Assembly (NCBI RefSeq): GCF_028292805.1
Contig: NZ_JAQGLS010000101.1
Location: 1-46,306 of the forward strand
Source of the DNA: Ramlibacter sp.
GTDB lineage: Bacteria > Pseudomonadota > Gammaproteobacteria > Burkholderiales > Burkholderiaceae_C
Reading direction: 5' to 3'
DNA: 46,306 nt
In this document: positions 22,997 through 43,207 of the stretch, one piece after another
How the letters are laid out: the number at the start of each line of letters is the position of its first letter
How positions within the stretch are numbered: position 1 is the stretch's first letter
The notes under the pieces: model-generated
What the model saw: only the letters and a program-made list of their open reading frames with translations
The model's database searches: none
What the model was told of the DNA's origin: nothing
Translations under genes and position numbers: made by a program

Positions 22997-23025
22997 TTGA
23001 CAAGTCATGTTGTCGTCTTCATAAT
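22997..23025 (+). promoter_or_regulatory. Promoter of the atuA-like/carboxylase operon
   Basis: A perfect TTGACA (22997-23002), a 17-bp spacer and CATAAT (23020-23025). Predicted transcription start is near 23032, giving a leader of about 47 nt with an AAGGA ribosome site at 23066-23070 before ATG 23079. The candidate operator begins at 23024, over the -10 box, which suggests repression. Confidence 0.7.
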
Positions 23026-23053
23026 GGAATTTGTGCTTCAGAAACGAAATTCG
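23024..23053 (+). promoter_or_regulatory. Candidate operator 1 (AYGRAAYT direct repeat, 20-bp period)
   Basis: ATGGAATTTG at 23024-23033 and ACGAAATTCG at 23044-23053, 20 bp apart start to start. The same two-copy arrangement occurs at three other promoters in the block (30087, 30935 and 42533 minus). It covers the -10 box and transcription start. The likely ligand is one of the two IclR regulators encoded at 28404 and 29228. Confidence 0.6.
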
Positions 23054-23078
23054 CACGATTTCCCACAAGGATGGCCGC

Positions 23079-24455
23079 ATGAAGAAGATCGTTCGCCTGG
23101 GGGCCGGTTCCGGCTTCTGGGGAGACGCAATGGATCCAGCAATGGAATTGCTGGAGCACGGGAACCTGGATTACCTGTGCTTTGACTTCCTGGCTGAGCT
23201 CACAATGGCATTGCTGCAAAGGCAGAAGCTCAAGAACCCGCAGGCCGGCTACGTGCCCGATGCGGTCACGTACATGAACGCGATGCTGAAGATGGCACGT
23301 CAGCGCGGTACGCGGCTGATCTCGAACGGTGGCGGCGTCAACCCCAGGGCTGCCGCGGAGCGCGTGGCGGAAGGCGCCCGGGCGGCCGGACTGCAGGGAA
23401 CCCGGATCGCCTTGGTGGAAGGGGACGACCTGCTGTCTAAGCTCGACACCCTGGTCGCGGATCGGATTCCGCTTGTCAACATGGATACCGGCGACGAGGA
23501 TTTCGCCGCCATTCGCTCGCGGGTTGTCTCGGCCAACGTCTACACCGACAGCACCGGGATCGTCGCGGGTCTGGAAGACGGCGCCGACGTCGTGATCGCC
23601 GGACGCGTCTCCGACAACGCCGTGTATGTCGGGCCACTGGCGCACGAGTTTGGCTGGAAACGGGATGCGGCCCACGTGGACCGGCTTGCGGCGGCGGTCA
23701 CCCTCGGGCATATCGTCGAATGCGCGTCCGCCTGCACCGGCGGCATGTCTTCGCGTTTCGCCGAGATGCCTGCCATGGGCCGGGTCGGGTTTCCGATCCT
23801 CGAAGTCGCTTCCGATGGAAGCGCCGAAATCACGAAGCTGCAAGGCAGCGGCGGCCGCATCGACGAGTTCACGATCAAGGAGCACCTGGTCTACGAGATC
23901 GGCGATCCCCGCAGCTACCTGATGCCGGATGCGATCGCGGACTTCACGTCCCTGCGGCTGCAGCAGAGCGGAACCGACCGCGTCCGAGTCTGGGACGTGA
24001 AGGGGCGCACGCCCCCCGAGATGCTCAAGCTGGTGGTGGGCTACCAGGACGGATGGATCGGCGAAAGCATGGCGTTCTTTCCCTGGCCCAACGCCTACGA
24101 CCGGGCGCTCAAGGCTAAGCAGACGATGCTGGAGCGGTTCGAGCGCATGGGCCTGGAAGCATCGCAGGTGCACTTCGACCTGATCGGCCTCAACACGCTG
24201 CACGGACCGGCCGCGCCTGCGCCCGATCCGGCCGCCGCCAATGAATTGCCGGAGGTCGGCTTGCGTTGCGCCGTGCGCACGCGCACGATGGAGGAGGCCG
24301 ACAAGGTGCGGCGCGCCGGCGCCCACCTGTGGATCATGGGTCCGGGCGGGACTTCGTTCGGCACGCCGATCAAGCCGCGGCCGGTCATCTCGCTGTGGCC
24401 GACGCTCATTCCCCGCTCGTACGTCGAGCAGAAAACACAAACCCTCGTGGCTTGA
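23079..24455 (+). CDS. AtuA-like (DUF1446) protein
   Basis: A 458-residue protein of the acyclic terpene utilisation AtuA/DUF1446 family. It begins MKKIVRLGAGSGFWGDAMDPA, with AAGGA placed 8 nt before ATG 23079. Diagnostic blocks are GNLDYLCFDFLAELTM, LISNGGGVNPRAAAE, VVIAGRVSDNAVYVGPL, and CASACTGGMSSRF. In Pseudomonas the first gene of the citronellol cluster encodes a relative of unknown biochemical role. Here it heads an operon with a small partner and a biotin carboxylase pair, the same association as in the atu cluster. The usual C-terminal extension of long family members is absent and is supplied by the next gene. Confidence 0.85.
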   Translation: MKKIVRLGAGSGFWGDAMDPAMELLEHGNLDYLCFDFLAELTMALLQRQKLKNPQAGYVPDAVTYMNAMLKMARQRGTRLISNGGGVNPRAAAERVAEGARAAGLQGTRIALVEGDDLLSKLDTLVADRIPLVNMDTGDEDFAAIRSRVVSANVYTDSTGIVAGLEDGADVVIAGRVSDNAVYVGPLAHEFGWKRDAAHVDRLAAAVTLGHIVECASACTGGMSSRFAEMPAMGRVGFPILEVASDGSAEITKLQGSGGRIDEFTIKEHLVYEIGDPRSYLMPDAIADFTSLRLQQSGTDRVRVWDVKGRTPPEMLKLVVGYQDGWIGESMAFFPWPNAYDRALKAKQTMLERFERMGLEASQVHFDLIGLNTLHGPAAPAPDPAAANELPEVGLRCAVRTRTMEEADKVRRAGAHLWIMGPGGTSFGTPIKPRPVISLWPTLIPRSYVEQKTQTLVA

Positions 24456-24466
24456 GGAGCAGGACG

Positions 24467-24778
24467 ATGACCAAGATTGTTCGCGACATTGCATACGTCC
24501 GTTCCGGCGACAAGGGAGACATTTGCACGGCCGGCGTCATTGCCCGCACCCCGCAGGACTATCGCGCGCTGAAAGCCAGCGTGACGCCGCAGGCCGTCAA
24601 GGCGCTTTACGGCGACTGGGTGGCAGGTGACGTCGATTGCTACTCCATGGACAACATCGAAGCGGTGGTCGTGGTGATGCGGCAAGCGTTGGGCGGCGGC
24701 GCCACCCGGACCCTGCGCCTCGACCAGACCGGCAAGTCACTGGGTTACGCCCTGCTGCGCCTTCCGGTTCTGGACTGA
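24467..24778 (+). CDS. Small AtuA-associated protein (detached AtuA C-terminal domain)
   Basis: A 103-residue cytoplasmic protein starting at ATG 24467 with an AGGAGCAGGA ribosome site. It reads MTKIVRDIAYVRSGDKGDICTAG, the conserved YVRSGDKGDxxNxG-like start of the domain found fused to the C-terminus of longer AtuA/DUF1446 proteins. Here it is a separate gene 11 bp after the atuA-like gene. The pair probably act as one enzyme in two chains. The reaction is unknown. The carboxylase beta gene follows 3 bp after its stop. Confidence 0.78.
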   Translation: MTKIVRDIAYVRSGDKGDICTAGVIARTPQDYRALKASVTPQAVKALYGDWVAGDVDCYSMDNIEAVVVVMRQALGGGATRTLRLDQTGKSLGYALLRLPVLD

Positions 24779-24781
24779 GAG

Positions 24782-26386
24782 ATGGCGCTGCTAGGTTCGC
24801 CCGTCCGCCCCGCAAGCTCCGAATTCACAGCAAACCTCGCCCAGCATCGCGCCTTCTCGCAGCAGGTCGACAGCGCGCGAAGTAGCGCGATCGCCGGGGG
24901 CAGCAATCAGGCTCGCGATGCCCATGGCGCGCGCAACAAGCTCCTGCCGCGCCAGCGCATCGATGCCGTGCTGGATCCGGCCACCCCGTTCCTGGAAATC
25001 GGGCAGCTGGCGGGGCACGGTCTCTACGAGGGCGGGGTGCCCAGCGCGGGAATCATCACCGGCGTCGGCATCGTCGAGGGCCGGCCTTGCATGGTCATGG
25101 CCAACGATGCCACGGTGAAGGGCGGGACGTACTATCCCCTGACGATCAGGAAGCAGATCCGCGCACAGACCATCGCGCGCGAGAACGCGCTGCCGTGCCT
25201 CTACCTGGTCGACTCCGGCGGCGCCTTCCTGCCGCTGCAGGAGGACATCTTCCCGGACGAGAACCACTTCGGGAAGATCTTCCGCAACATCGCAGAGATG
25301 TCGGCGCTGGGCATTCGCCAGGTCGCGGCCGTCCTCGGATCGTGCACGGCGGGAGGTGCCTACATTCCTGCCATGTGCGACGAGACCGTGATCGTCGAGG
25401 GCAACGGCACCATCTACCTGGGCGGGCCGCACCTGGTGCAGGCGGCCACGGGTGAAGTCGTCGACCACCAGTCTCTGGGCGGTGCCGACGTGCACACGCG
25501 GATGTCCGGTGTGGCGGACCACTACGCGCACGACGAACTGCATGCGCTCTCCCTGGTCCGCGACATCGTCGCGCGGCCCGGCCCCGCCCGCATCGCAAAG
25601 CCGCCGCTGGTGCCGGTCCCTCCCAAGTACGACCCGGCGGAACTGCAGGGGCTGATTCCCGCCAATCCGAAGCAGCCGATTCCGGCACGCGAGATCCTCG
25701 CGCGCATCCTCGATGGCAGCGAGATTGCGATGTACCGTGAACGCTACGGCGCCACCCTGCTTTGCGGAACGGGTGCCATCGGCGGCTATCCTGTCGGGGT
25801 TCTCATCAACGACGGGGTGCTGATGAGCGAGAGCGCGCAGAAGGCCGCGAACTTCATCCAACTGTGCAGCCAGAGCGGTATTCCGCTCGTGTTCCTGCAC
25901 AACGTCAGCGGCTTCATGGTCGGCGTGTCGCACGAGCAGGGCGGGATCGCCAAGGATGGCGCGAAGATGGTCAATGCAGTGTCGACTTCGCGCGTGCCCA
26001 AGTTCAGCGTGATCGTCGGCGGCAGCTACGGAGCCGGAGCCTATGCGATGTGCGGCCGGGCCTTCGGGCCGCGATTGATGGCGATGTGGCCGAACGCCCG
26101 CACTTCGGTGATGGGAGGCGAGCAGGCCGCAACCGTCCTCGCCCTGGTTCGGCAAGAGCAACTCGCGCGCAAGGGCCAGCGGTTCACGGCCGAGGAAGCC
26201 GAAGCCTTCAAGCAGCCCGTACGCGAGAGCTACGCGGCGCAGAGCACTGCCCTTCATGCGGCGTCCCGGCTCTGGGTGGATGCGATCATCGATCCCGCGG
26301 ACACCCGCGCGTGGCTGGCGATGGGGCTTTCGCTGGCCGCCGCCAGCCCGCCGCAGGAGACGCGGTTCGGCGTTTTCAGGATGTGA
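24782..26386 (+). CDS. Acyl-CoA carboxylase, carboxyltransferase (beta) subunit
   Basis: A 534-residue carboxyltransferase that moves CO2 from carboxybiotin to an acyl-CoA. It belongs with the methylcrotonyl/geranyl-CoA carboxylase beta group (LiuB/AtuC type). Visible are the ARNKLLPRQRID start block, MANDATVKGGTYYPLTIRK, CLYLVDSGGAFLPLQ, GSCTAGGAYIPAM in the N-terminal crotonase-like half, and FLHNVSGFMVG and GGSYGAGAYAMCGRAF in the C-terminal half that form the biotin site oxyanion pockets. Placement beside an AtuA-like protein points to a beta-methyl-branched enoyl-CoA. The exact substrate cannot be read off. It is followed 2 bp later by the alpha subunit. Confidence 0.92.
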   Translation: MALLGSPVRPASSEFTANLAQHRAFSQQVDSARSSAIAGGSNQARDAHGARNKLLPRQRIDAVLDPATPFLEIGQLAGHGLYEGGVPSAGIITGVGIVEGRPCMVMANDATVKGGTYYPLTIRKQIRAQTIARENALPCLYLVDSGGAFLPLQEDIFPDENHFGKIFRNIAEMSALGIRQVAAVLGSCTAGGAYIPAMCDETVIVEGNGTIYLGGPHLVQAATGEVVDHQSLGGADVHTRMSGVADHYAHDELHALSLVRDIVARPGPARIAKPPLVPVPPKYDPAELQGLIPANPKQPIPAREILARILDGSEIAMYRERYGATLLCGTGAIGGYPVGVLINDGVLMSESAQKAANFIQLCSQSGIPLVFLHNVSGFMVGVSHEQGGIAKDGAKMVNAVSTSRVPKFSVIVGGSYGAGAYAMCGRAFGPRLMAMWPNARTSVMGGEQAATVLALVRQEQLARKGQRFTAEEAEAFKQPVRESYAAQSTALHAASRLWVDAIIDPADTRAWLAMGLSLAAASPPQETRFGVFRM

Positions 26387-26388
26387 GC

Positions 26389-28350
26389 ATGTTCCGTCGG
26401 ATCCTGATCGCCAACCGCGGCGAAATCGCCTGCCGCATCGCACGCACGTGCCGGGCGCTGCGCGTCGAGTACGTCGCGATCTACACGGATGTGGACGCTG
26501 GCGCGCTTCACCTTCACGACGCGGTGACGGCCGTGCGCATCGGCGCGGGGCCGGCGGCGCAAAGCTATCTCGACGGCGCGCTCATCATCGCGGCCGCGCT
26601 GGAAACTGGATGCGATGCGGTGCATCCGGGCTATGGCTTCCTGTCCGAGAACAGCAGGTTCGCTGCCGACGTCATCGCAGCCGGGTTGACCTTCATCGGC
26701 CCGAAGCCGGAAACCATCGCCGCTCTCGGCGACAAGGCCCGTGCCAAGTCGCTCATGCAAGCCGCCGGGGTACCGGTCGTGCCGGGAGGGGAGGGTGCAA
26801 GCGACGAGCCGGCGGTCATCCAGGAGATGGTGCGCAGGGTTGGCCTGCCGGCGCTGTTGAAGCCCAGCGCCGGCGGCGGTGGCAAAGGCATGCGGGTGGT
26901 CGCCTCGCACGCGGAGCTGGACGAGGCGGTGGCGTCGGCCATCCGTATCGCGCGCAGCAGCTTTGGGGACGGGCGGCTGATCGTGGAGCGCTACATCGAG
27001 CAGCCGCGCCACATCGAGGTGCAGGTTTTCGGCGATTTGAACGGGGACGTCGTCCACCTGTTCGAGCGCGAGTGCTCCTTGCAGCGGCGCCACCAGAAGG
27101 TGGTGGAGGAAGCCCCGGCACCCAACCTGCCCGCCGCAGTGCGGCATCGCCTGATCGACGCAGCCGTGCGCGGCGCGCGCAGTGTCGGCTATTTGAACGC
27201 GGGAACCTTCGAGTTCATCGTTGGCCGGGACCTGCAGTTCTATTTCCTCGAGGTGAATACCCGCTTGCAGGTCGAGCACCCAGTGACCGAATGCGTCACC
27301 GGCCTCGACCTGGTCGAGTGGCAGCTGCGTGTCGCGGCCGGCGAACCCTTGCCGTTGCAGCAGGACATGATCCGCTGCAACGGGCATGCCGTGGAGTGCC
27401 GGATCTACGCGGAAGATCCGGCCCGCGATTTCATGCCCGCTCCCGGTACCGTCGGCGTCGTCCGCTGGCCCGCCGGGGTCCGCGTGGAAGCCGGCATCAG
27501 CTGCGGCGGCAGCGTGCCGTCCTTCTACGATCCGATGGTTGCCAAGCTCGTGGCGCACGCGCCCGACCGCGTCGGCGCGCTGGCGAAGTTGAGCGTCGCC
27601 CTGAGCGAGACCTTGCTGCTGGGCCTCACCACGAACATCGGCTACCTACGGCGCGTCCTTGCCGACCCGGGAGTCAAGATGGCCCAAGCGCACACAAGGT
27701 ATCTTGATGAACATTCCACGCGCTTCGTGCCGGCTGCGGGCGAAGCCCGGGCTGCGGCTTGCGCGGCGGTTCTCGGGGTCGCGCCCAACGCCGGCGGCCA
27801 CCCCTGGGCCGTCGACGAGAACCAAGGCCCGGCGGATCGCGCCTGCCTCGACCCGCAGGCCCCATTGGGCAGGGTCCACCTCTGGATCGGCGAGACGCGC
27901 TGGCAGTGCGCACTGCAGGCGCGATCCGCTTGCGGCTTCGTGGTGGCCGTGGGCGGCACGGCTTGGCAAGTCCAGGGCGCCCCAGATCCGTCCCGCCTGT
28001 GGACGGGCAGCGTCGGATCGGCTCCATGGTCGGCGCAATGGGGCGACGGTGTCTGGGAGTTGCAGGTGGACGGTGACCGCTTCGCGCTGCAGCCGGCTCG
28101 CTCGCGGGCCTTCGCCAGCGCGGCGGCTGCCGGCGCGGCGGTGGCCCCCATGTCCGGAACCGTCGCCGCGGTTGCGGTCGCTGTCGGAGACCGGGTCCGC
28201 CAGGGCGATTCGGTTGCGGTGGTGGAAGCCATGAAGATGGAGCACAACGTGGTCGCGGCAGTGGACGGCACGGTGCGCGCAGTCGCCTTTCGCGTCGGAG
28301 AGCCGGTGAAGGCCGGGGAGCTGATCGTCGACATCGACGCTTCGCAGTGA
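26389..28350 (+). CDS. Acyl-CoA carboxylase, biotin carboxylase/carrier (alpha) subunit
   Basis: A 653-residue subunit starting at ATG 26389. Biotin carboxylase (about 1-445) has HPGYGFLSE (79-87), ATP-grasp loop GGGGKGM (162-168), RHIEVQVFGD and FLEVNTRLQVEHPVTE. A linker of about 120 residues follows. A biotinyl-carrier domain ends the chain with VEAMKMEHN, the acceptor being K616. This three-part layout is that of LiuD/AtuF and PccA alpha subunits. With the preceding beta gene it forms a complete acyl-CoA carboxylase holoenzyme. The short Ala-rich linker before the carrier domain (about 575-590) is a swinging arm. Confidence 0.94.
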   Translation: MFRRILIANRGEIACRIARTCRALRVEYVAIYTDVDAGALHLHDAVTAVRIGAGPAAQSYLDGALIIAAALETGCDAVHPGYGFLSENSRFAADVIAAGLTFIGPKPETIAALGDKARAKSLMQAAGVPVVPGGEGASDEPAVIQEMVRRVGLPALLKPSAGGGGKGMRVVASHAELDEAVASAIRIARSSFGDGRLIVERYIEQPRHIEVQVFGDLNGDVVHLFERECSLQRRHQKVVEEAPAPNLPAAVRHRLIDAAVRGARSVGYLNAGTFEFIVGRDLQFYFLEVNTRLQVEHPVTECVTGLDLVEWQLRVAAGEPLPLQQDMIRCNGHAVECRIYAEDPARDFMPAPGTVGVVRWPAGVRVEAGISCGGSVPSFYDPMVAKLVAHAPDRVGALAKLSVALSETLLLGLTTNIGYLRRVLADPGVKMAQAHTRYLDEHSTRFVPAAGEARAAACAAVLGVAPNAGGHPWAVDENQGPADRACLDPQAPLGRVHLWIGETRWQCALQARSACGFVVAVGGTAWQVQGAPDPSRLWTGSVGSAPWSAQWGDGVWELQVDGDRFALQPARSRAFASAAAAGAAVAPMSGTVAAVAVAVGDRVRQGDSVAVVEAMKMEHNVVAAVDGTVRAVAFRVGEPVKAGELIVDIDASQ

Positions 28351-28389
28351 GGGAGGCGGGCGCCCGCGTTGCCACTGTTAGACTCGACC

Positions 28390-28399
28390 CGAATTTCAT
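28390..28399 (-). promoter_or_regulatory. Single operator-like half-site before the first iclR gene
   Basis: On the minus strand this reads ATGAAATTCG, which fits the AYGRAAYT core shared by the four paired operators. No second copy is present 20 bp away on either side. It lies 5 bp before ATG 28404 and could support weak autoregulation, or be chance. Confidence 0.3.
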
Positions 28400-28403
28400 T
28401 CCG

Positions 28404-29228
28404 ATGATGGCTTCGAGTCCCGCGATCTCCTCTCATGAACCGCCGACGGCCTTGACCGAAGTCAGGGTGCTGGCGCGCGGATTGGCGCTGCTCAGGGCGT
28501 TCGAACCCGCCAACGACTGGAAGACGAATGCTGAGCTTTCCAGCGTCACTGGGCTGCCGAAGCCGACGGTCTCCCGCATCACCGCCAGGCTCACTGAGGC
28601 AGGCTATCTGATCTATTCCGGTGAACGGGCGGCCTACCGGCTGGGCACGTCGATCCTGGCGCTCGGCTACGGCGCGGCATCCAATCCCAACCTGGTCGTG
28701 ATTGCGCGGCCATTGATGCAGCAGTTTGCCGACCAGCACAAGGTGTCCGTCGTCCTGGCCTCTTCGGATGCCGACAGCATGGTGTGCGTCGACGTGGCGC
28801 ACAGCCGGGCAATGATGTTCACCCTGCGCGTTCGCGCGGGCTGGAGGTTCCGGATGGACCAGTCGGCACTGGGTCGGGCCCTGATCGGATCGATGGGCGA
28901 TGCCGAGCGGGAGCGGATGCTGACGAGGCTGGCCGAAGCCGATCACAGCACCTGGTCGGCGCTCCTTGGTCAAGTCAAGTCGCTGGTCACCCAGATGCAG
29001 CGACGGCAATACTGCATCGCCGCAGGCACTCTGGAACGAGGCACCAACGGAGTCGCGGTGGTTATCGATACGCCGGACCGGCCGCATTCGTACGCGCTCG
29101 GCTGCGCGGCTCCTTCCAACGTCATGAGCGTGGCGCGCATCGAAAGCGATGTGGGTCCAGGCTTGGTCGCGCTCAAGCACGCGCTCGAGAAGGAACTGGG
29201 TGCGGCAGTCGAAAGGACGGAGGACTGA
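28404..29228 (+). CDS. IclR-family transcriptional regulator (first of tandem pair)
   Basis: A 274-residue DNA-binding regulator starting at ATG 28404, with a second ATG next to it. N-terminal winged helix (about 20-80): VRVLARGLALLRAFEPAND then ELSSVTGLPKPTVSRITARLTEAGYL. The effector-binding domain spans about 95-265, with MVCVDVAHSRAMMF, ALGRALIG and ERGTNGVAVVI in place of the common variants. Family members sense small organic acids or CoA-pathway intermediates. The gene is 53 bp after the carboxylase alpha stop and overlaps the next iclR by TGATG. Confidence 0.93.
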   Translation: MMASSPAISSHEPPTALTEVRVLARGLALLRAFEPANDWKTNAELSSVTGLPKPTVSRITARLTEAGYLIYSGERAAYRLGTSILALGYGAASNPNLVVIARPLMQQFADQHKVSVVLASSDADSMVCVDVAHSRAMMFTLRVRAGWRFRMDQSALGRALIGSMGDAERERMLTRLAEADHSTWSALLGQVKSLVTQMQRRQYCIAAGTLERGTNGVAVVIDTPDRPHSYALGCAAPSNVMSVARIESDVGPGLVALKHALEKELGAAVERTED

Positions 29229-30040
29229 TGGTCAGGAGAAGGAGTCCGGATACGCTCGCGCTGAACCCGGAGCGGGTCCATGGTCCCGGCGAGGAGGTCG
29301 ATTCCCTGCTGCGCGGACTGGAACTCCTGCGGCTGTTCGACGTGCGCCATCGCGTTCTGGAGACGACGGAGATTGCCGCCAAGCTCGGTTTGTCGCGCGC
29401 CACGGCCGCCAAGCTGGTGGCAACGCTGCAGCAGCACAACTTCCTGCGCGCGCGAAACCCGGGCGGCGGCTTCGAGCCCCACGTCGCTTGCCTCGCCCTG
29501 GGGCGCGCCGTCAAGCGGGGGCTGCCGATCGTCACCGCGGCGCAGCCGCGCATGCTTGCGCTGTCGCAGCGGTTCGGCGTGCATGTCACGCTGTCCACCC
29601 GCGACCGCTCGCACATGCTGGTGGTCGAGCACGTCGTCCCCGCGGGGCAGGTTCGCCTGGGACTCGACACCGGGGCACGGCTGCCGCTTGCCGCCTCCGC
29701 ATCCGGCCGCGCGTACCTGTGGGCCCAGCCACCGGCCTTGCGTGACCAGTTGCTGGAACGCATCCGCGAGCATGACCAAGACGGCTCGTTCCGGCTGCTG
29801 TCCAACGTGTACGCGGCATTCCAGGAGCTGGCGGAGAAGGGCTGGTGCTTCCTGGCGGCGCCGATGACGAGCCAGACCGGCTCACTCGCCGCGCCGATCG
29901 AGGTCTTCGGGCGTGTCGACTACGTGCTCACCGCCATGGCCGTGGGGCCGGACGCGCAACGACAGCTGCGCGCGCGGGTGGCCCCCGAGCTCGTGGCGCA
30001 CGCCAGCTTCATCGCGCAGGACCTGACAGCCGCGTCCTGA
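29228..30040 (+). CDS. IclR-family transcriptional regulator (second of tandem pair)
   Basis: A 270-residue regulator starting at ATG 29228, in the TGATG overlap with the previous gene, so the two are translated together. Winged helix: EVDSLLRGLELLRLFDVRHR then EIAAKLGLSRATAAKLVATLQQHNFL (about 23-80). The effector domain follows to the end, with LVVEHVVPAGQVRLGLDTGARLPLA (split by no gap) and ASASGRAYLWA. It is clearly diverged from the first IclR protein, especially in the effector pocket, so the pair may sense different ligands or form a heteromer. Confidence 0.92.
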   Translation: MVRRRSPDTLALNPERVHGPGEEVDSLLRGLELLRLFDVRHRVLETTEIAAKLGLSRATAAKLVATLQQHNFLRARNPGGGFEPHVACLALGRAVKRGLPIVTAAQPRMLALSQRFGVHVTLSTRDRSHMLVVEHVVPAGQVRLGLDTGARLPLAASASGRAYLWAQPPALRDQLLERIREHDQDGSFRLLSNVYAAFQELAEKGWCFLAAPMTSQTGSLAAPIEVFGRVDYVLTAMAVGPDAQRQLRARVAPELVAHASFIAQDLTAAS

Positions 30041-30079
30041 GGTCGCCAGCCTGGGGTGCGGGCCCTGATTCCGCTTGGA

Positions 30080-30108
30080 TCGACAAATGAAATTTGCCGG
30101 TCCATAAT
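30080..30108 (+). promoter_or_regulatory. Promoter of the enoyl-CoA hydratase-like gene (predicted leaderless)
   Basis: TCGACA (30080-30085), a 17-bp spacer and CATAAT (30103-30108), the same layout as the promoter at 22997. The ATG at 30116 lies 7 nt past the -10 box, which is where transcription should begin. A leaderless mRNA is predicted. Confidence 0.6.
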
Positions 30109-30116
30109 GGAATTGA
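30087..30116 (+). promoter_or_regulatory. Candidate operator 2 (AYGRAAYT direct repeat, 20-bp period)
   Basis: ATGAAATTTG at 30087-30096 sits between -35 and -10. ATGGAATTGA at 30107-30116 covers the end of the -10 box up to the A of the predicted start codon. The spacing is exactly 20 bp, as at the other three sites. Confidence 0.6.
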
Positions 30117-30925: not shown

Positions 30926-30934
30926 CAAACCAAA

Positions 30935-30964
30935 ACGAAATTGTTGAAGTCAAAACGAAACTGG
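30935..30964 (+). promoter_or_regulatory. Candidate operator 3 (AYGRAAYT direct repeat, 20-bp period)
   Basis: ACGAAATTGT at 30935-30944 and ACGAAACTGG at 30955-30964 flank the -35 box of the following promoter. The period is again 20 bp. Its place relative to the promoter matches operator 4 at 42533-42562. Confidence 0.6.
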
Positions 30965-30973
30965 CGCTATGAT
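30944..30973 (+). promoter_or_regulatory. Promoter of the maoC-to-acyl-CoA dehydrogenase operon
   Basis: TTGAAG (30944-30949), an 18-bp spacer and TATGAT (30968-30973). Start of transcription is expected near 30980, leaving a leader of about 50 nt with GAGGA at 31014-31018 before ATG 31029. The TTGACA at 30922-30927 is an upstream alternative but lacks a good -10 box. Confidence 0.55.
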
Positions 30974-31028
30974 GCATCGTGGCTCACGCAACGCACCGTG
31001 CCGGCGATCTATTGAGGAATGACCGAAG

Positions 31029-31475: not shown

Positions 31476-31509
31476 CCTTCACCAACATCCAACGAGACAG
31501 GCAGACCCC

Positions 31510-34414: not shown

Positions 34415-34452
34415 CGCCACATCGTGCCAACCAAAACCAAAGGAGACCGACC

Positions 34453-35427: not shown

Positions 35428-35488
35428 CCCCCGCCGGCCACACGCCACGCCTGTGGCGGTGGCCGCAACAAGACGGCAGGTGAGAAGC

Positions 35489-36907
35489 ATGGCAACCCTC
35501 GTCGAACAACTGGCGGCATTCACGCAGGTGCCTTACGCGAAGCTGCCGGCGCCCGTCGTCGAGGAGAGCAAGCGACTGCTGCTGGACTCCATCGGGGCGG
35601 CACTGGCGGCGGTCGATTCGCCGAAGGGCCGCATCGGCATCGAGTACGGCCGCATGCAGGGCGCGAGCGGCCGCGCGACGGTGATCGGTACCTCCGAGCG
35701 TCTCAACGTCTTCGGAGCCGCTTTCGCCAACGCGGAGCTGATCAACGCGCTGGACATGGATGCGATCCTGCCGCCGGGCCATGTCACGCCTTACGTCCTG
35801 CCCGGCGCGCTGGCCGTGGCGGAAGACCAGGCCCTCGCTGGCAAGGACCTCATTCGGGCGATCGCGGTCTCCCATGAAATGTCGTGGAGGCTTGGCAAGG
35901 CGATGGACTACCTACGCGACACCAGGGACGGCAAGGTCGCCACGCCGCTCGTCTTCGGCTACAGCAGCACCGTCTTCGGTGCGACGGCGGCCATCGGCCT
36001 GCTGCAGGGAATGTCCGCCGAGGTCATGGCGCACGCGCTCGGCATTGCCGGCTGCATCTCTCCCGTGAATGCCCAGATGGCCTGGTTCGACCACGCGCCG
36101 AGTTCGACCATCAAGTACCTGCTGGGTGGCACCCTCACGCAGGCGGCCATGACGGCAGCGCACATGGCGGCGCTCGGACATCGCGGCGACCTGACGGTGC
36201 TGGACGACCGGGAAGTCGGCTACGCCCGCTTCATGGGCACCAGCCGCTGGGAGCCGGCGGTGATCCGCGCCGGGCTGGGGACGGACTGGAACTTTCCCGC
36301 CGAGACGTCCTACAAGCCCTACGCGCATTGCCGGATCCTGCACGCCCTGGCGGACGTGCTGATGGAGATCGTCCGCACGAACGCCATCCGGCCGCAAGAG
36401 ATCGACGGGATCAAGGTCTGGGTCGAAGGCATGGTCGAACGCCCCATCTGGCTCAATCGCCAGATCCACGAACCGATGGACGCGCAGTTCAGCATCGCCC
36501 ACGGGATCGCGCTTGCGGCGCACTGCCCGCCGACTGCGCGTGCCTGGCAAGACCCCGCCTTCATCTTCCGCCCATCGGTGCTGGCTCTGATGGACAAGGT
36601 CAGCCACGAGGTCCATCCCGACTACGTGAAGCTTCTCACGAGCCACGGGTCGAGCCGGCCCGCCAAGGTAGAGGTACGCGCGCGCGGAACCAGCTTTACC
36701 GGCGAGAAGCGTTTTCCGAAGGGCAGCCCTTCGCCCGATCCTTCCACGGCGATGACGAACGGCGAGTTGATCGCCAAGTTCCACGACAACGCACAGGGAC
36801 GAATCCCGGATCGGCAGGCGCAGGAGCTAGTCACCGCGGTGTTCGGGCTGGAGGCGGTGCAGGACATCGGCGACCTGATGGTCCTGTCGGCCCCAGGTCG
36901 CGCATGA
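35489..36907 (+). CDS. MmgE/PrpD family protein
   Basis: A 472-residue protein from ATG 35489 (MATLVEQLAAFTQVPY). Members include 2-methylcitrate dehydratase, cis-aconitate decarboxylase and many uncharacterised hydro-lyases. Seen are LLDSIGAALAA, NAELINALDMDAILPPGHVTPYVLPGALAVAE (two adjacent blocks), GSSRW-like FMGTSRWEPA and TSYKPYAHCRILHALADVL, with the conserved KPY-x-x-C region. PrpD itself has DDTW/HPS near the first block; here DAILPPGHVTP replaces it, so it is not ordinary PrpD. It may dehydrate or decarboxylate a methyl-branched dicarboxylate. It overlaps the next gene by ATGA. Confidence 0.88.
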   Translation: MATLVEQLAAFTQVPYAKLPAPVVEESKRLLLDSIGAALAAVDSPKGRIGIEYGRMQGASGRATVIGTSERLNVFGAAFANAELINALDMDAILPPGHVTPYVLPGALAVAEDQALAGKDLIRAIAVSHEMSWRLGKAMDYLRDTRDGKVATPLVFGYSSTVFGATAAIGLLQGMSAEVMAHALGIAGCISPVNAQMAWFDHAPSSTIKYLLGGTLTQAAMTAAHMAALGHRGDLTVLDDREVGYARFMGTSRWEPAVIRAGLGTDWNFPAETSYKPYAHCRILHALADVLMEIVRTNAIRPQEIDGIKVWVEGMVERPIWLNRQIHEPMDAQFSIAHGIALAAHCPPTARAWQDPAFIFRPSVLALMDKVSHEVHPDYVKLLTSHGSSRPAKVEVRARGTSFTGEKRFPKGSPSPDPSTAMTNGELIAKFHDNAQGRIPDRQAQELVTAVFGLEAVQDIGDLMVLSAPGRA

Positions 36908-38199
36908 CGCCTGCGGCTCGCCTCTGTCCCGCCGACGCATTCAGTTTCCATGGACTGTTGGCGGCCGGCGACCACATTGTGTGCGGCCAGGCGGCGGCAG
37001 AGCCGCTGACGCTCACCCGCAAGCTGGTCGCGCAGGGAGCGGCCGTGGCGCCCGTGACCTTGTTCCTGGGCGCGACGCTCAGCCCCACCTTCGACGGCGG
37101 CGTTCCCGCAGGCATGCGCTTTTTCTCGTACGGAACGCTCGGGCACAACGCGTCGCTGGCCGACCGCGGCCTGCTCGAGATCCTGCCCGAACGCTACAGC
37201 CGCATCGCTCCGCTGTTCCGGGCCGGCACGCTGCCCGCCGACGTGGTGTTGCTGCAGTTGGCGCCCGGCCGCGGCGGGCGGCGGCCCAGCCTGGGCCTTG
37301 CCCACGACTACTGCGTCGATGCCGCCCGCCGTGCGCGGTGCGTGGTCGCCGAACTCAATGCAGGCGTGCCCTGGACGCACGGGGCCGAACTGCCGCCCGA
37401 CGTGCGCATCGACCACTGGGTCCAGGCCGACACCGGGCCGGTCGTCCTGCTGCCCCCGGCTGCAGGAGCGGTGGACGTGGCCATCGGCAAGCATGTTGCC
37501 GGCATCGTGCCGGATGGTGCGACGCTGCAGGCCGGCATCGGCAGCCTGCCCGACGCCGTGTTCCGGCAACTGCGCGGGCATCGCCACCTCGGCTTGCATT
37601 CCGGTGTCTTCGGCGACGCGGCTGCGCTCCTGATGCAGGCGGGCGCACTCACGAACACGCGCAAGGGGATCGATGCCGGAACCTCCGTCACCAACACCGT
37701 GGTCGGCAGCACCGACCTGTACCGATGGGTCGACGACAACCCGGGCGTGCAGGTGCGGCCGGGCAACTACACGCATGCGGCGGAGGTCATCGCGCGCATT
37801 CATTGCCTGTACGCCATCAACGGCGCGCTGCAGGTCGACCTCACGGGCCAGGTGAACAGCGAGGCTGTGGGCGGCCGGCAGCGGGGCGGAATCGGCGGGC
37901 TCCTCGATTTCTGTCATGCGGCACGCCAGTCGGACAGCGGCGGCCGGGCCATCACCGTGCTGCCCGCGACGGCGCACGGCGGTCGGCAAAGCCGCATCGT
38001 GGTCGATCTCGACGGTCCCGCCACTGTCGGCCGCGGCGATGTGGACGTGGTGGTGACGGAGTTCGGCGTGGCCGATCTGCGGCATGCGACCTTGGAGCAG
38101 CGCGCGGAGCGACTGATCGCCATCGCGGCGCCGGCATTCCGCGAAACCTTGCGTCACGCGTGGCGCAAATCTACCTGGGGATACAGGGCATGGCATTGA
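36904..38199 (+). CDS. Acetyl-CoA hydrolase/4-hydroxybutyrate CoA-transferase-like protein
   Basis: A 431-residue two-domain family I-like CoA-transferase starting at ATG 36904. It has GDHIVCGQAAAEPLTL in the first domain, and DGATLQAGIGSLPDAVF, VVGSTDLYRWVDDNP, NYTHAAEVIARI and LQVDLTGQVNSEAVGG in the second. In AbfT-type enzymes the covalent-catalysis Glu lies in HSE/HTE; the matching place here reads LHSGVF, giving Gly at residue 234. The enzyme may use another residue, may be a CoA hydrolase, or may have changed role. It overlaps the racemase gene by 10 bp. Confidence 0.85.
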   Translation: MTPAARLCPADAFSFHGLLAAGDHIVCGQAAAEPLTLTRKLVAQGAAVAPVTLFLGATLSPTFDGGVPAGMRFFSYGTLGHNASLADRGLLEILPERYSRIAPLFRAGTLPADVVLLQLAPGRGGRRPSLGLAHDYCVDAARRARCVVAELNAGVPWTHGAELPPDVRIDHWVQADTGPVVLLPPAAGAVDVAIGKHVAGIVPDGATLQAGIGSLPDAVFRQLRGHRHLGLHSGVFGDAAALLMQAGALTNTRKGIDAGTSVTNTVVGSTDLYRWVDDNPGVQVRPGNYTHAAEVIARIHCLYAINGALQVDLTGQVNSEAVGGRQRGGIGGLLDFCHAARQSDSGGRAITVLPATAHGGRQSRIVVDLDGPATVGRGDVDVVVTEFGVADLRHATLEQRAERLIAIAAPAFRETLRHAWRKSTWGYRAWH

Positions 38200-39353
38200 A
38201 AGGCGGGCCGCTTGCGGGCGTCCGGGTGGTCGAACTGGCGGGCATCGGCCCCGGGCCGATGTGCGGCATGCTGCTGGCCGACATGGGTGCGCAAGTGCTG
38301 CTGGTCGAGCGGCTGGAGCCGGCGAACGTCGGTATAGCGCGGCCACGCAAGTACGAATTGCCGCACCGTGGCAAGCAGTCGATCGCGATCGACCTCAAAC
38401 ACACGGACGGCGTGGCCCTCGTGGCTGACCTGGCCGCCGCCGCGGACGTGTTGATCGAGGGCTTTCGGCCCGGCACCATGGAACGGCTCGGCCTTGGGCC
38501 AGACGCCTGCATGGCGCGCCAACCGCGCCTGGTCTACGGCCGCATGACCGGCTACGGCCAGAGCGGGCCAATGCGTCACGCCGCCGGGCACGACCTGAAC
38601 TACCTGGCGCTGTCCGGCGCGTTGTCGGCCATCGGCCGTGCCGGCCAGAAGCCGAACGCACCGCTCAACCTGCTGGCCGACTATGCCGGTGGTGCCATGA
38701 ACCTGGCCTTCGGGATCGCGTGCGCGCTGGTCGAGCGCGACCGCTCTGGCTTGGGGCAGGTGATCGACGCCTCGATGGTCGAAGGCACGGCACTGCTCAT
38801 GACCTCGATGTTCGGCATGTACGCGGCCGGCATTCACAACGCGCCGCGCGGCCACAACATCCTGGACGGCGGCGCGCCTTACTACGACACTTACGCTTGC
38901 TCGGACGGCGCGTACGTCGCGTTCGCCGCGATCGAACACAAATTCCGGGCGGTCTTTGCCGAGCGCGCGGGCATCGCCTACGAGGCTCTCACGCAGCTGG
39001 ATGACCCGCTCACCTGGCCGGAAGGAAGGGCCATGCTCACTGCCGTGTTCGCGAGCAGGACACAACGCGAATGGTGCGAACTGCTGGAAGACAGCGACGC
39101 ATGTGTCACTCCCGTCCTGAACCGCGAAGAGGCGCCTGGCCACCGGCACAACGCGGCGCGGGGCAGCTTCGTTGTCAGCGATGGTGTGGCCCAACCGGCC
39201 GTCTCGCCCCGTTTGTCCCGCACGCCCGGAGCCAACCCTGCGCCGCCGCCGGAGCGGGGCGAACGGGGAGACGCCACAGCGATGTCGTGGGGCATCCCGC
39301 TCGCGCGCCTGGAGCGGCTGCGTGGCGCGCGCGTGCTGGGCCCGACGTCGTGA
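38190..39353 (+). CDS. Alpha-methylacyl-CoA racemase
   Basis: A 387-residue member of the CaiB/BaiF fold. It carries racemase rather than transferase residues: AGHDLNYLAL with H134 and LLADYAGGAM with D164, spaced as the His/Asp acid-base pair of the mycobacterial racemase MCR (H126 and D156). The front VVELAGIGPGPMCGMLLADMGA is the classic AMACR N-terminus. It epimerises 2-methyl-branched acyl-CoAs so that stereospecific dehydrogenases can act, which implies that the substrate has an alpha-methyl stereocentre. Start is ATG 38190. The C-terminal 60 residues are Pro/Arg-rich. Confidence 0.9.
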   Translation: MALKGGPLAGVRVVELAGIGPGPMCGMLLADMGAQVLLVERLEPANVGIARPRKYELPHRGKQSIAIDLKHTDGVALVADLAAAADVLIEGFRPGTMERLGLGPDACMARQPRLVYGRMTGYGQSGPMRHAAGHDLNYLALSGALSAIGRAGQKPNAPLNLLADYAGGAMNLAFGIACALVERDRSGLGQVIDASMVEGTALLMTSMFGMYAAGIHNAPRGHNILDGGAPYYDTYACSDGAYVAFAAIEHKFRAVFAERAGIAYEALTQLDDPLTWPEGRAMLTAVFASRTQREWCELLEDSDACVTPVLNREEAPGHRHNAARGSFVVSDGVAQPAVSPRLSRTPGANPAPPPERGERGDATAMSWGIPLARLERLRGARVLGPTS

Positions 39354-40249
39354 GGGATCTCGTGCAGGAACTCGTTTCCTCCATGCCGGCTTGGGCCATC
39401 GCCGCGCGCGCCATGGAGAGCCGCAGCGGCTTCATCGAAGTCGACGGCTGCTCCATCCACTATCTCGCGTGGGGCGATGCATCCTTGCCGCCGCTCGTCC
39501 TGGTCCACGGCAATGCGGCGAGCGCCGAGTGGTGGCGCTTTGTCGCACCCCTGCTCGCGAACGCGTACCACGTGATCGCCCCCGACCTCGGCGGGATGGG
39601 TGACAGCAGCCATTGCGGCCGCTACGCTCGCGAGCGCTATGCCGACCAGGTCATGCATGTGGCGGACAGCCTCGCGCCAGGCCGAGCGCCTGTCGTCGTC
39701 GGCCACAGTCTCGGCGGTTTCGTGGCGATCATGGCCGGGGTCAGCCATGGCGACCGCATGGCCGGGCTCGTGGTGCTCGACTCTCCACCGCGCGAGCCGG
39801 ACGGCGCGACCTTCGTTTCGTACGTGCAGTCCCGCCCGGTGCCCAAGATCTATCCAGACCGGGAAAGTGCACTGCAGCGGTTCAAGGTGCTGCCCGACCA
39901 GCCCGTCAACTGCGCCTTTTACCTGGACCATATCGCGCGGACGGCGATCAGGCCGGAGGCCGGCGGCTGGCGCTGGAAGTTCGATCCCGCCGCCTTGACG
40001 CACCCACGCCGGCTCGACTACGTCCAGGACCTCCTGGACATGCGCTGTCCGGTGGCGTTGATGTGGGGCGAGCTGAGCGAGCGCTTCGGCAGCGAGGCCC
40101 GCGGGTTTGCGCACGCAGCGTTCGATGGCGTGCTGCCGCTGGTGGAGATCGCGAACGCACGTCACCACATCATGCTGGACGAGCCGCTCGCACTCGTCAC
40201 CGCGCTGCGCACCCAGCTGGCGAACTGGAAGGCCGCCCGCAAAGGGTGA
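39350..40249 (+). CDS. Alpha/beta hydrolase
   Basis: About 299 residues from GTG 39350 in a GTGA overlap with the racemase. GTG 39362 (after AGGGA) and ATG 39383 are other possible starts. Fold marks are LVLVHGNAASAEWW (oxyanion hole), APDLGGMGDSS, VVGHSLGGFVA with nucleophile Ser, the acid probably in LMWGELSERFG, and NARHHIMLDEP with the catalytic His. It may hydrolyse an ester or lactone form of the pathway substrate, or act as an acyl-CoA thioesterase. No signal peptide is seen. Confidence 0.85.
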   Translation: MRDLVQELVSSMPAWAIAARAMESRSGFIEVDGCSIHYLAWGDASLPPLVLVHGNAASAEWWRFVAPLLANAYHVIAPDLGGMGDSSHCGRYARERYADQVMHVADSLAPGRAPVVVGHSLGGFVAIMAGVSHGDRMAGLVVLDSPPREPDGATFVSYVQSRPVPKIYPDRESALQRFKVLPDQPVNCAFYLDHIARTAIRPEAGGWRWKFDPAALTHPRRLDYVQDLLDMRCPVALMWGELSERFGSEARGFAHAAFDGVLPLVEIANARHHIMLDEPLALVTALRTQLANWKAARKG

Positions 40250-40285
40250 CTCCGGCATACCGACCTTACTGACCGAACACCACCC

Positions 40286-41452
40286 ATGGACCTCGAATTC
40301 ACATCCAGCCACTTGGCCCTGCGCGAGGCGATCCTCGACCTGTGCAGCCGTTTCGACGACGCCTACTGGCTCAACAAGGACCGCGTCGGTGGTTTTCCGG
40401 AAGATTTCTACCGCGCCGTCGCCGATGCCGGATGGCTGGGCATCGCGATGCCGGAGGAGTACGGCGGCTCGGGCCTGGGCATCACCGAGGCGGCGGTGAT
40501 GATGCTGGCCATCGCGGAGGCAGGGGGAGCCTTGTCCGCGGCGTCCTCGGTGCACATGAACATCTTCGGCCTGAACCCCGTCGTGGTGTTCGGCAGCGAC
40601 GAGCAGAAGCGCCGCGCCTTGCCGCCGCTGATCCGGGGCGAGACGAAGGCTTGCTTCGCAATCACCGAACCCGATGCCGGGCTGAATACGACCCAGCTGA
40701 CGACGCGCGCGGTCCGCAACGGCGATCACTATCTGATCTCGGGGCGCAAGGTCTGGATCTCGACGGCGCAGGTGGCGGATTACATGCTGATCCTGGCGCG
40801 CACGACGCCCCTGGATGAGGTAAAGCGACCGACCGACGGGCTGAGCCTGTTCTATACGAAGCTTGACCGCAACTACATCGACGTGCGCGAGATCGACAAG
40901 ATGGGCCGCAAGGCGGTCGATTCCAACGAACTGTTCATCGACGGCCTGCTCGTGCCCGTGGCGGACCGGATCGGCGAGGAAGGCAAGGGTTTCCAGTACA
41001 TCCTGCACGGCCTCAACCCCGAGCGCGTGCTGGTCGCGGCGGAGGCGGTGGGCATCGGCCGCGCCGCCCTGGGGCGCGCCACGCGCTATGCAAAGGAACG
41101 CGTCGTGTTCGGCCGCCCGATCGGCCAGAACCAGGGCATTCAGCATCCGCTCGCCATCTCATGGGCGGAGCTGGAGGCGGCGCAACTCATGGTCTTTCGT
41201 GCAGCGGGCCTGTATGACCGCAACCTGCCTTGCGGGCCGCAGGCCAACGCGGCAAAGTACCTGGCGGCGGAGGCGGCGGTCAAGTGCTGCGAAACGGCCA
41301 TCCTGACCCACGGCGGGTACGGATACGCCAAGGAATACCACGTGGAGCGCTACCTGCGCGAGGTGATGATCCTGCGCATCGCGCCGGTCAGCCCGCACCT
41401 GGCGTTGTGCAACATCGCCGAAAAGGTGCTGGGGCTACCGAAGTCCTATTGA
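40286..41452 (+). CDS. Acyl-CoA dehydrogenase (second)
   Basis: A 388-residue FAD acyl-CoA dehydrogenase, last gene of the long operon. It has AGWLGIAMPEEYGGSGLG (about 49-66), FAITEPDAGLNTTQ (about 130-143) and HGYGYAKEYHVERYLRE-like GGYGYAKEYHVERYLREV. The C-terminus ends ILRIAPVSPHLALCNIAEK with no YEGT Glu, so the base is again likely in the internal helix (LNPERVLVAAEA). It differs much from the first dehydrogenase, so two oxidation steps, or two stereoisomers or chain lengths, are expected. The convergent bug gene ends 30 bp away. Confidence 0.91.
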   Translation: MDLEFTSSHLALREAILDLCSRFDDAYWLNKDRVGGFPEDFYRAVADAGWLGIAMPEEYGGSGLGITEAAVMMLAIAEAGGALSAASSVHMNIFGLNPVVVFGSDEQKRRALPPLIRGETKACFAITEPDAGLNTTQLTTRAVRNGDHYLISGRKVWISTAQVADYMLILARTTPLDEVKRPTDGLSLFYTKLDRNYIDVREIDKMGRKAVDSNELFIDGLLVPVADRIGEEGKGFQYILHGLNPERVLVAAEAVGIGRAALGRATRYAKERVVFGRPIGQNQGIQHPLAISWAELEAAQLMVFRAAGLYDRNLPCGPQANAAKYLAAEAAVKCCETAILTHGGYGYAKEYHVERYLREVMILRIAPVSPHLALCNIAEKVLGLPKSY

Positions 41453-41459
41453 GAGCCAA

Positions 41460-41476
41460 GCGCCCGGGGAGGGCGC
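41460..41476. terminator. Hairpin between convergent genes
   Basis: GCGCCC-gggga-GGGCGC lies in the 30-bp gap between two convergent stops. It has no T-tract, so it is a weak or factor-dependent bidirectional terminator at best. Confidence 0.4.
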
Positions 41477-41482
41477 CGCTGC

Positions 41483-42460
41483 TCACTCCAGCGTGACGCC
41501 GGAACTCTTGATGATGGGTGCCCACTTCTCGCGTTCTTTCTGCAGCAACTTCGACAGGTCGGCCGACGTGCCGCCGATCGGGATCAGTCCGCCATCGATG
41601 AACTGCTGCTGCAGCGCGGGAGCTTTCATGGCGTCCATTGCGGCGCGCTGGAGTTTTGCCAGCACGGGCGCGGGCGTGTTGGCCGGCGCCAGCAGGCCGC
41701 CATAGGCCTCCATTTCGTAGCCGGGAACGCCGGCTTCCGAGATCGTGGGGAGCTCGGGAAAGATCCGGGAGCGGTACGGGTTGGCCGCCGCGATTGCGCG
41801 AATCTTGCCGCCCTTGATCAACTGGCCTGCCACGGCGGTGGAAATGATGGCCGCGTCGACGCGTTCGCCGACGAGATCCAGGATCGCGGGGCTCTCGCCT
41901 TTGTACGGCACGTGCGTCATCTCGGTGTGGGTCATGAACTTCAACAGTTCCATGGCCAGATGCTGTGGCCCGCCGGTTCCGGACGAGCCGTAGCTCAGCT
42001 TGCGCTCCTTCGCCACCTTGAGGAATTCCTGTACGGTGCGCGCCGGCAGCCCGTTGCGCACCACCAGCAGGTGGTCGTACGTGACGACATGGCTGATCGG
42101 CGCGAGGTCCTTGTCGACCTTGTACGAAAGCTTCGGATCCATGATCGGACGCAACGTGAGGTTCCCCGCGCCGCCGAAGACGAGCGTGTATCCGTCCGCG
42201 GGCGACTTGGCCACCAGATCCGTGCCGATGACGCCGGCGACGCCTGGCTTGTTTTCCACGATGACGCTTTGCGCGAGCAGCTTCGCCATCTCCCCGGCCA
42301 CCAGGCGAGCGGACACGTCGGTGGCTCCCCCCGGCGGGTACGGCACCACGATGCGGATAGGCCTGTCCGGAAAGGCTCCTTGCGCGATGGCGGACACGTG
42401 CGCGCTGAAGACGCAGGTGGCAACAAGGCCGACCAGCGCGGGGAAATGACGTCGCTTCAT
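41483..42460 (-). CDS. Bug/TctC-type solute-binding protein (second)
   Basis: A 325-residue periplasmic receptor. The start at 42460 (MKRRHFPALVGLVATCVFSA) has AAGGA about 6 nt upstream and opens a normal signal peptide ending near VSAIAQGA. The mature protein begins FPDRPIRIVVPYPPGGATDVSARL. PADGYTLVFGGAGN, HVPYKGESPAILDLVGERV and PTISEAGVPGYEMEAYGGLLAP are the standard family blocks. It is transcribed toward the long operon from its own promoter, which bears the shared operator. It has the canonical PPGGATD ligand loop, unlike the first receptor (AAGTTTD), so the two may bind different ligands. Confidence 0.94.
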   Translation of the reverse strand: MKRRHFPALVGLVATCVFSAHVSAIAQGAFPDRPIRIVVPYPPGGATDVSARLVAGEMAKLLAQSVIVENKPGVAGVIGTDLVAKSPADGYTLVFGGAGNLTLRPIMDPKLSYKVDKDLAPISHVVTYDHLLVVRNGLPARTVQEFLKVAKERKLSYGSSGTGGPQHLAMELLKFMTHTEMTHVPYKGESPAILDLVGERVDAAIISTAVAGQLIKGGKIRAIAAANPYRSRIFPELPTISEAGVPGYEMEAYGGLLAPANTPAPVLAKLQRAAMDAMKAPALQQQFIDGGLIPIGGTSADLSKLLQKEREKWAPIIKSSGVTLE

Positions 42461-42521
42461 GGCAATTCCTTCGATGCATTGCTGCGCTTGGACGCGCCTG
42501 GTGGTGCGCATTCGCGAGCCC

Positions 42522-42550
42522 ATGATAGCGCACCAATTTCATTGTGAGAA
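42522..42550 (-). promoter_or_regulatory. Promoter of the second bug gene
   Basis: On the minus strand TTCTCA (42550-42545), a 17-bp spacer and TATCAT (42527-42522). The -35 box lies between the two operator half-sites, as at the 30944 promoter. The leader would be about 55 nt. Confidence 0.5.
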
Positions 42551-42562
42551 CCCTAATTTCAT
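42533..42562 (-). promoter_or_regulatory. Candidate operator 4 (AYGRAAYT direct repeat, 20-bp period)
   Basis: On the minus strand ATGAAATTAG (42562-42553) and ATGAAATTGG (42542-42533), 20 bp apart. This is the most uniform of the four sites and the clearest statement of the motif. Confidence 0.6.
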
Positions 42563-43089: not shown

Positions 43090-43207
43090 GTTTCTCGTTC
43101 CGCATCCCAGCCCGTAAGGGTTATACCCCGGGCTTGCGGCCGAGCTCCTCCCTAGAATCTGCTGCTATGCAATAGCGGGCTGCTCGCCCGTGCGAGGAGC
43201 TTCGTTC

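Follow-up and report, generated by a model that had tools for sequence, protein, structure and literature searches.

Paired direct boxes 20 bp apart in a catabolic block of Ramlibacter: probable operators of an IclR-type regulator

Four direct-repeat sites and their closest described relatives

In the usual descriptions of IclR-family operators the boxes face one another, and same-direction boxes are unusual among them. According to the accessible sections of a published survey (PMC8222616), three-box IclR operators are those of PcaU, PobR and HmgR together with 32 predicted groups, those of PcaU and PobR combining a palindrome with a single direct box outside it, and two modes of dimerisation were inferred from such three-box sites. 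The same sections list tandem palindromic sites 18–22 nucleotides (nt) apart in 94 groups and give the operator of IclR group 1 as GKTYCRYW3-4RYGRAMC, with the subgroup WTTYCRYW3RYGRAAW; they describe no direct boxes lacking an inverted one. The present study deals with a catabolic block of Ramlibacter sp. (assembly GCF_028292805.1, contig NZ_JAQGLS010000101.1, positions 1 to 46,306; this whole stretch of 46,306 nt is called the window below), in which four promoter regions each carry two direct copies of AYGRAAYT with starts 20 base pairs (bp) apart. The block encodes two IclR proteins in tandem, IclR1 and IclR2. Based on the comparison of sequences between genomes, we think it likely that IclR1, probably acting with IclR2, uses the four pairs as its operators, and that these go back to a three-box operator whose inverted box was lost.

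As far as the published descriptions at hand go, the block sites share with the three-box operators a half-site with an RYGRA core, the direct outer boxes, the protein family and the location in catabolic operons, but the inverted partner which makes those operators palindromic is absent from the block sites (0 of the 37 sites defined below). The precedent of PcaU and PobR, which the first-pass annotation of this DNA had cited as relatives using repeated half-sites, is not equivalent, since their operators contain a palindrome and an external box and the block sites have no inverted box. The tandem palindromic sites also show a repeat unit of about two helical turns on the same DNA face, but each unit is a palindrome there and a single arm in the block. 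The operators of Escherichia coli IclR and KdgR have a similar GAAA/GGAA-type half-site (PMC8222616, Table 1), but it is arranged in inverted repeats, whereas those of the block are direct. Both boxes of the block sites match the right arm RYGRAAW of the above subgroup, preceded by W3. The inverted left arm WTTYCRY of the group 1 operator was found upstream of box 1 in none of the 37 sites, and the three boxes of alternating direction typical of PcaU-like operators were not found either, the middle box being absent from 37 of the 37 when up to one mismatch is allowed. Literature searches covering titles and the openings of abstracts, and few subscription journals, returned no two-direct-box IclR operator without an inverted box and, among the papers listed for IclR heterodimers, no heteromeric IclR pair; they returned nothing for BlcR and nothing for AtuA in combination with IclR. 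The direct two-box operator appears to be new in lacking the inverted box, the kind of half-site and the protein family being already known.

The four pairs were found exactly where the first-pass annotation had placed them (Table 1), the shuffled expectation being 0.00, and its observation is correct and stronger than first claimed. When the whole genome (3.83 Mb, 329 contigs) was scanned for AYGRAAYT-N12-AYGRAAYT, four exact matches were obtained, all of them inside the block. Allowing one mismatch added no match, and allowing two added 9, a number close to the 6 given by a backwards control. Equally good pairs at unrelated genes, named in the annotation as an outcome that would tell against it, were not found in this genome. 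When the window was searched for two boxes on one strand that together contain no more than one mismatch and start no more than 60 bp from each other, 20 bp was the only spacing obtained (n = 4). When a position matrix was built from 33 non-window sites, all from other genomes, it placed the four window sites at the top, with 36.5, 34.0, 30.6 and 22.0 bits; the next scores (8.4, 5.1 and 2.2) correspond to shifted reads of the same four sites, while the best place elsewhere scores -1.1 bits and the best of five locally shuffled windows 0.4.

Conservation of the sites and the middle box

Matches to IclR1 with E-values of 1e-40 or better were obtained by BLAST in 5 of 399 family genomes, including that of the window. 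One of them, G295 (the numbers of genomes, G, and loci, L, are ours), carries an exact match to the pattern about 5.4 kb from its IclR1 gene, and G295, G300, G023 and the distant G109 all show a 20-bp direct repeat with 0–2 mismatches upstream of block genes or of a TctC gene. A scan of a genome collection gave 443 relatives, the best 80 of which were kept as loci (L025-L104); the selection made use of peptide patterns, PKPTVSR being part of one of them, and took no account of the central box. In loci L025-L043, block genes are accompanied by IclR1 and IclR2 as a tandem pair, and L045 carries the IclR pair with MaoC-ACAD-CaiB genes (ACAD standing for acyl-CoA dehydrogenase) and no atuA within the stretch. 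In the 22 genomes compared, consisting of the window, G295 and a set of 20 (three of which repeat G023, G300 and G109), at least one site with no more than one mismatch lies beside a block gene in 22 of 22. The comparison of orthologous blocks proposed in the annotation thus came out in favour of the sites, and the lack of conservation that would have told against them was not encountered. A site is present just upstream of atuA in 17 of the 21 genomes in which atuA was seen. With up to one mismatch, 20 bp is the commonest spacing in both groups of loci, accounting for 8 of the 16 pairs of the close group and for 8 pairs of the far group, where the next spacing has 3, and with two mismatches the far group again peaks at 20 bp (32 pairs, the next having 20).

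The motif is based on 37 hand-picked block sites, namely the four window sites and those hits located at block genes that have no more than one mismatch; identical copies were collapsed, and the sites are not independent events. The gene label is weak in five of the 37: L135:1677 has no recognised block gene within 700 bp and lies 800 bp from an atuA site, the block gene nearest to L022:8240 is CaiB1 on the opposite strand, and the TctC genes at L024:1539, L140:1469 and L140:1545 are merely 37% identical to that of the window. Hits at other genes or not belonging to the block (L108, L112, L115, L121, L125-L127, L130-L133, L141-L145 and L150-L152) were left out. In the alignment of these 37 non-identical sites two TYAWAAYGRAATTA-like boxes stand out, both of high information and both preceded by conserved A/T flanks, and spacer positions 8-16 do not exceed 0.46 bits.

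The far relatives, which are lone IclR genes with 33-39% identity, carry three boxes in the order direct, inverted, direct. In 47 of 60 lone loci, a pair of RYGRAAY boxes (no more than one mismatch) with 20-bp spacing was found no more than 600 bp upstream of the locus's own iclR gene, and 44 of these 47 regions also have the central inverted box (at most one mismatch). At the same threshold this central box occurs in 0 of the 37 block sites, versus 43 of 58 sites of the lone set; since 0.65 block sites would be expected with shuffled spacers, the middle box is at chance level in the block. The C at position 14, which is key to the middle box, is present in 2 of the 37 block sites versus 48 of the 58 lone-set sites. 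When pairs of boxes were scanned with the box matrix in lone and block regions, extra peaks were obtained at inverted -11 and direct 5 beside that at direct 20; they are put down to the partial self-complementarity of the A/T-rich box, which is an assumption, and were not used. By eye, 20-bp pairs with a perfect middle inverted box were also seen upstream of TctC genes outside the block (L125, L141-L144), where they are probably operators of other IclR proteins. As such perfect middle boxes exist outside the block in block-bearing genomes, their absence from the block is not a genome-wide property.

The candidate reader, its promoters and the alternatives

IclR1 and IclR2 both score above the cut-offs for PF09339, the N-terminal helix-turn-helix of the family, and PF01614, its C-terminal effector domain. 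Among solved structures, IclR1 matched 5whm (4.8e-37), the Pca regulon regulator 8eju (3.8e-15) and TtgV, 2xrn (4.1e-08), and IclR2 matched 5whm (1.4e-23). The recognition helix of IclR1, PKPTVSR, is unchanged in the five genomes found by BLAST, including G109, where the overall identity is 41%; that of IclR2 is altered in G109. Orthologues of IclR2 with more than 60% identity are present in 4 of the 399 family genomes (its own included), all of which have IclR1, the diverged IclR2 of G109 falling below this cut-off. The other matches to IclR2 (32-37% identity) belong to genomes without IclR1, except for a second copy in G295, and look like ordinary paralogues. A tandem IclR2 lies beside IclR1 in 20 of the 21 closer loci (L025-L045) and was detected in 0 of the 59 distant loci, where a neighbouring IclR gene might escape notice in L060, L078 and L097, which end within 410 bp, or wherever it is too unlike the three queries. 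In a tree of 18 tandem and 60 lone IclR1-type proteins with 4 IclR2 (L033, L034, L035 and L040 having been dropped as near copies), the tandem IclR1 proteins make up one side of a branch with a support of 100/100.

The first-pass annotation had attributed the pairs to a regulator gripping one DNA face across two helical turns, likely one of the two IclR proteins. The comparison across genomes supports a single IclR-type regulator for the block acting over two turns, and the link between the operator and the IclR genes can be regarded as well supported on this basis. The choice between the two proteins can now be narrowed: since the lone relatives of IclR1 carry like boxes 20 bp apart beside their own genes, and since its helix is unchanged, IclR1 is most likely the protein that reads the boxes.

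The position of the operator in relation to the promoter varies, the -10 starting at -4 (atuA), +16 (ECH, the enoyl-CoA hydratase family gene), +33 (MaoC1) and +35 (Bug2) relative to box 1. The register, which had been described as the same, is therefore not identical, but these positions follow steps of roughly 20 bp, so that one helix face would be kept. In 12 of 15 atuA sites, a promoter script located the -10 at -4..+1 relative to box 1 and a TTGAC 17-18 bp before it. At 4 sites, the best promoter is oppositely directed, with TTGACA and a -10 at +25..+30, so that the same stretch is covered by a flipped operator. As the operator covers the -10 and the region downstream whichever way round it lies, blocking of the polymerase is favoured over contact with it. 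A second class, in which the two boxes enclose the -35 and the -10 falls at about +33 to +40, includes the window Bug2, L136 and L138 according to the script, and the window MaoC1 and the Bug2 of G295 by eye. The start codon of ECH, 7 bp after the -10 (30103-30118), suggests a leaderless message; L042 has an ECH-like layout, with TATCAT followed by ATG 6 bp later. A lone reversed box near the start of iclR1, which the list given in the annotation omits, was also observed. Such a box (AATTTCAT) lies 7 bp past TAGACT or TAGAAT in 6 of the 17 loci examined (the window, G295, Diaphorobacter and three Achromobacter/Bordetella), L037-L039 having AATTCCRT variants and the others none; it is possibly an autoregulatory half operator of iclR1.

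The recognition helix of IclR1 would be inserted into each AYGRAAYT box, the 20-bp distance presenting both boxes on one helix face. At atuA and ECH, where operator and -10 overlap, the bound regulator should obstruct RNA polymerase until it is released by a pathway metabolite, probably an acyl-CoA intermediate. At MaoC1 and Bug2, where the boxes lie around the -35, repression is the simpler reading and activation the alternative. The ancestral operator would have been direct, inverted, direct, and its middle box would have been lost in the clade with a second tandem IclR. Binding by IclR1, repression, the inducer and the direction of this change are what we infer here. IclR2 perhaps took over the inverted-box arm within a mixed oligomer, and two mixed units placed head to tail could have turned the three-box operator into a pure direct repeat.

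Whether the IclR1-IclR2 mixed oligomer is obligate, with only IclR1 reading a specific box, is a tentative point, to which we give somewhat less than an even chance. A homo-oligomer of IclR1 alone, with one subunit of each dimer on a box and the other arm touching DNA unread, IclR2 being separate or a modulator, is likewise a serious candidate, though short of evenly probable. The absence of any visible conserved IclR2 box in the spacer and the variation of the IclR2 recognition helix among blocks with constant boxes are consistent with it, as is the view expressed in the accessible part of the survey that tandem IclR sites 18-22 nt apart are bound by tetramers with their dimers on one DNA face (PMC8222616), but it leaves unexplained the pairing of the genes in 20 of the 21 closer loci and the inverted box missing from this clade. 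That IclR2 rather than IclR1 reads the boxes is improbable: it does have a complete IclR helix-turn-helix, more conserved than its C-terminal part (1.26 vs 1.60 bits over 18 loci), but its helix differs between blocks with unchanged boxes, and the lone relatives of IclR1, with no IclR2 neighbour detected, carry the same kind of boxes.

Activators of the AraC/XylS type, which form a different protein family, use paired direct boxes spaced by about two turns near the -35, and the direct repeats round the -35 at two of the promoters fit such use. An unrelated direct-repeat regulator of this sort, encoded elsewhere, is nevertheless very improbable, as none of the 20 proteins scanned with Pfam, all of them from the window, is of the AraC/XylS type, the motif accompanies IclR1-IclR2 in 22 genomes while its three-box relative adjoins lone iclR genes, and an operator lying over the -10 suits a repressor. 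As for chance or the A+T-rich composition of promoters, A+T-rich boxes are easier to find there, and the bare exact pattern gave 9 matches in the other 298 family genomes, the same number as the backwards control; these are one each in 9 genomes, among which only G295 has an IclR1 match, and this search across the 299 family genomes is uninformative when taken alone. The exclusivity of the sites to the block in their own genome, the single 20-bp spacing, the conservation across genera and the ranking by a matrix trained on outside sites leave chance with hardly any probability, and it was rejected.

Several points weigh against IclR1 operators derived from a three-box ancestor. In G412, G415, G416 and G417 there is no atuA site with up to one mismatch, the sites lying at other block genes; the outer pair near iclR is missing in 13 of the 60 lone loci, and L044, a lone relative with 39% identity, has no outer pair. 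With up to two mismatches, the close loci L025-L040 show 10 pairs at 20 bp vs 12 at 16 bp, several of the close loci stopping short of the atuA promoter. The middle box is approached with three mismatches or fewer in 17 of the 37 block spacers vs 10.8 expected with shuffled spacers, shifts of up to 2 bp let 2 of the 37 reach one mismatch, and a weak trace of this box may remain in the block. A second conserved spacer sequence, for IclR2, was sought in the 37 sites and not seen. The low entropy of the recognition helix in IclR1 over 18 loci (0.30 bits vs 0.99 bits in IclR2) and the sharing of this helix by L025-L104 are in part due to selection, because one of the scan patterns contains PKPTVSR. 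The tree was midpoint-rooted for drawing only, and the tool flagged long branches, among them L045 and the IclR2 rows. Since a single supported branch, and thus a single change in the tree, is involved, the coincidence of the gene pair with the lost box is one event, on which the link between IclR2 and that loss rests. Lastly, the promoter search was run without a chance control and the A/T-rich box itself contributes to the -10, and the position of the boxes at MaoC1 and Bug2 would suit an activator too.

The block and the interest of the operator

The genes of the block extend from 23079 to 42457 (Table 1), between a tRNA-Val (gac) at 22475-22551 and a phaR-type gene at 43118-43744. In the rest of the presumed operon 3, the order is acyl-CoA dehydrogenase, CaiB, MaoC2, TctC receptor and PrpD, followed by an acetyl-CoA hydrolase C-terminal family protein, CaiB2, an alpha/beta hydrolase and acyl-CoA dehydrogenase 2. 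In genomes of the same genus, the gap between tRNA-Val and phaR measures less than 80 bp (L172), about 1.6 kb (L171) or about 5.8 kb (L174). In the simplest reading, the block was inserted into a variable site, and this would account for operator and regulators travelling together. A duplicated tRNA end was not found at the far border of the island, the longest tRNA repeat in the window being 12 bp and lying inside the block.

Two other observations were made in the genomes compared. In L008, L009 and L152 (genus g19), a near-identical 20-bp pair lies upstream of a gene whose protein starts with MNSQFGIANVWIQGD, and two of these three genomes have no IclR1 match. The sequence ATGAAATGCCGTACCGCAACATGAAATT, placed between divergent reading frames in L127, is kept in 6 of 20 genomes (that of L127, G403, G404, G406, G407 and G408, with one base changed in G408).

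Table 1. Coordinates of the candidate operators, predicted promoters and genes of the block (window positions)
Feature	Position	Strand	Remarks
Candidate operator 1 (atuA promoter)	23024..23051	+	boxes ATGGAATT and ACGAAATT, starts 20 bp apart
Candidate operator 2 (ECH promoter)	30087..30114	+	boxes ATGAAATT and ATGGAATT
Candidate operator 3 (MaoC-ACAD-CaiB promoter)	30935..30962	+	boxes ACGAAATT and ACGAAACT, one each side of the -35
Candidate operator 4 (Bug2/TctC receptor promoter)	42535..42562	-	boxes ATGAAATT and ATGAAATT, one each side of the -35
Predicted atuA promoter	22997..23025	+	TTGACA-N17-CATAAT; -10 at -4..+1 relative to box 1
Predicted ECH promoter	30080..30108	+	TCGACA-N17-CATAAT; -10 overlaps box 2; 7 bp before start codon 30116
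Predicted MaoC1 promoter	30944..30973	+	TTGAAG-N18-TATGAT; -35 between boxes; by eye, the script chose another pair
Predicted Bug2 promoter	42522..42550	-	TTCTCA-N17-TATCAT
Lone reversed box	28392..28399	-	7 bp past TAGACT, a -10-like hexamer (stretch 28379-28399); just before iclR1
atuA-type gene	23079..24455	+	first of operon 1; Pfam
Small conserved gene between atuA and carboxyltransferase	24467..24778	+	–
Acyl-CoA carboxylase carboxyltransferase	24782..26386	+	Pfam
Biotin carboxylase-like subunit	26389..28350	+	open frame; name assigned by eye from the translation
IclR1	28404..29228	+	HTH_IclR and IclR_C; proposed box reader
IclR2, tandem partner	29231..30040	+	HTH_IclR and IclR_C; divergent recognition helix
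Enoyl-CoA hydratase family gene (ECH)	30116..30925	+	Pfam
MaoC dehydratase (MaoC1)	31029..31475	+	first of operon 3; Pfam
Rest of presumed operon 3	31510..41452	+	nine genes; Pfam
TctC (Bug) receptor 2 (Bug2)	41483..42457	-	Pfam

The block with its atuA and acyl-CoA carboxylase genes, which occurs in several genera of Burkholderiales, would be a regulon with a clean operator. It also amounts to a natural experiment on the choice of IclR proteins between inverted and direct boxes, since relatives sharing the reading helix have a three-box operator where the iclR gene stands alone and a two-box operator where a second one accompanies it. The clade makes the idea of two dimerisation modes, as set out in the accessible sections of the survey (PMC8222616), directly testable. 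If the proposal of a mixed oligomer is true, the IclR regulator would be a heteromer and its operator polar.

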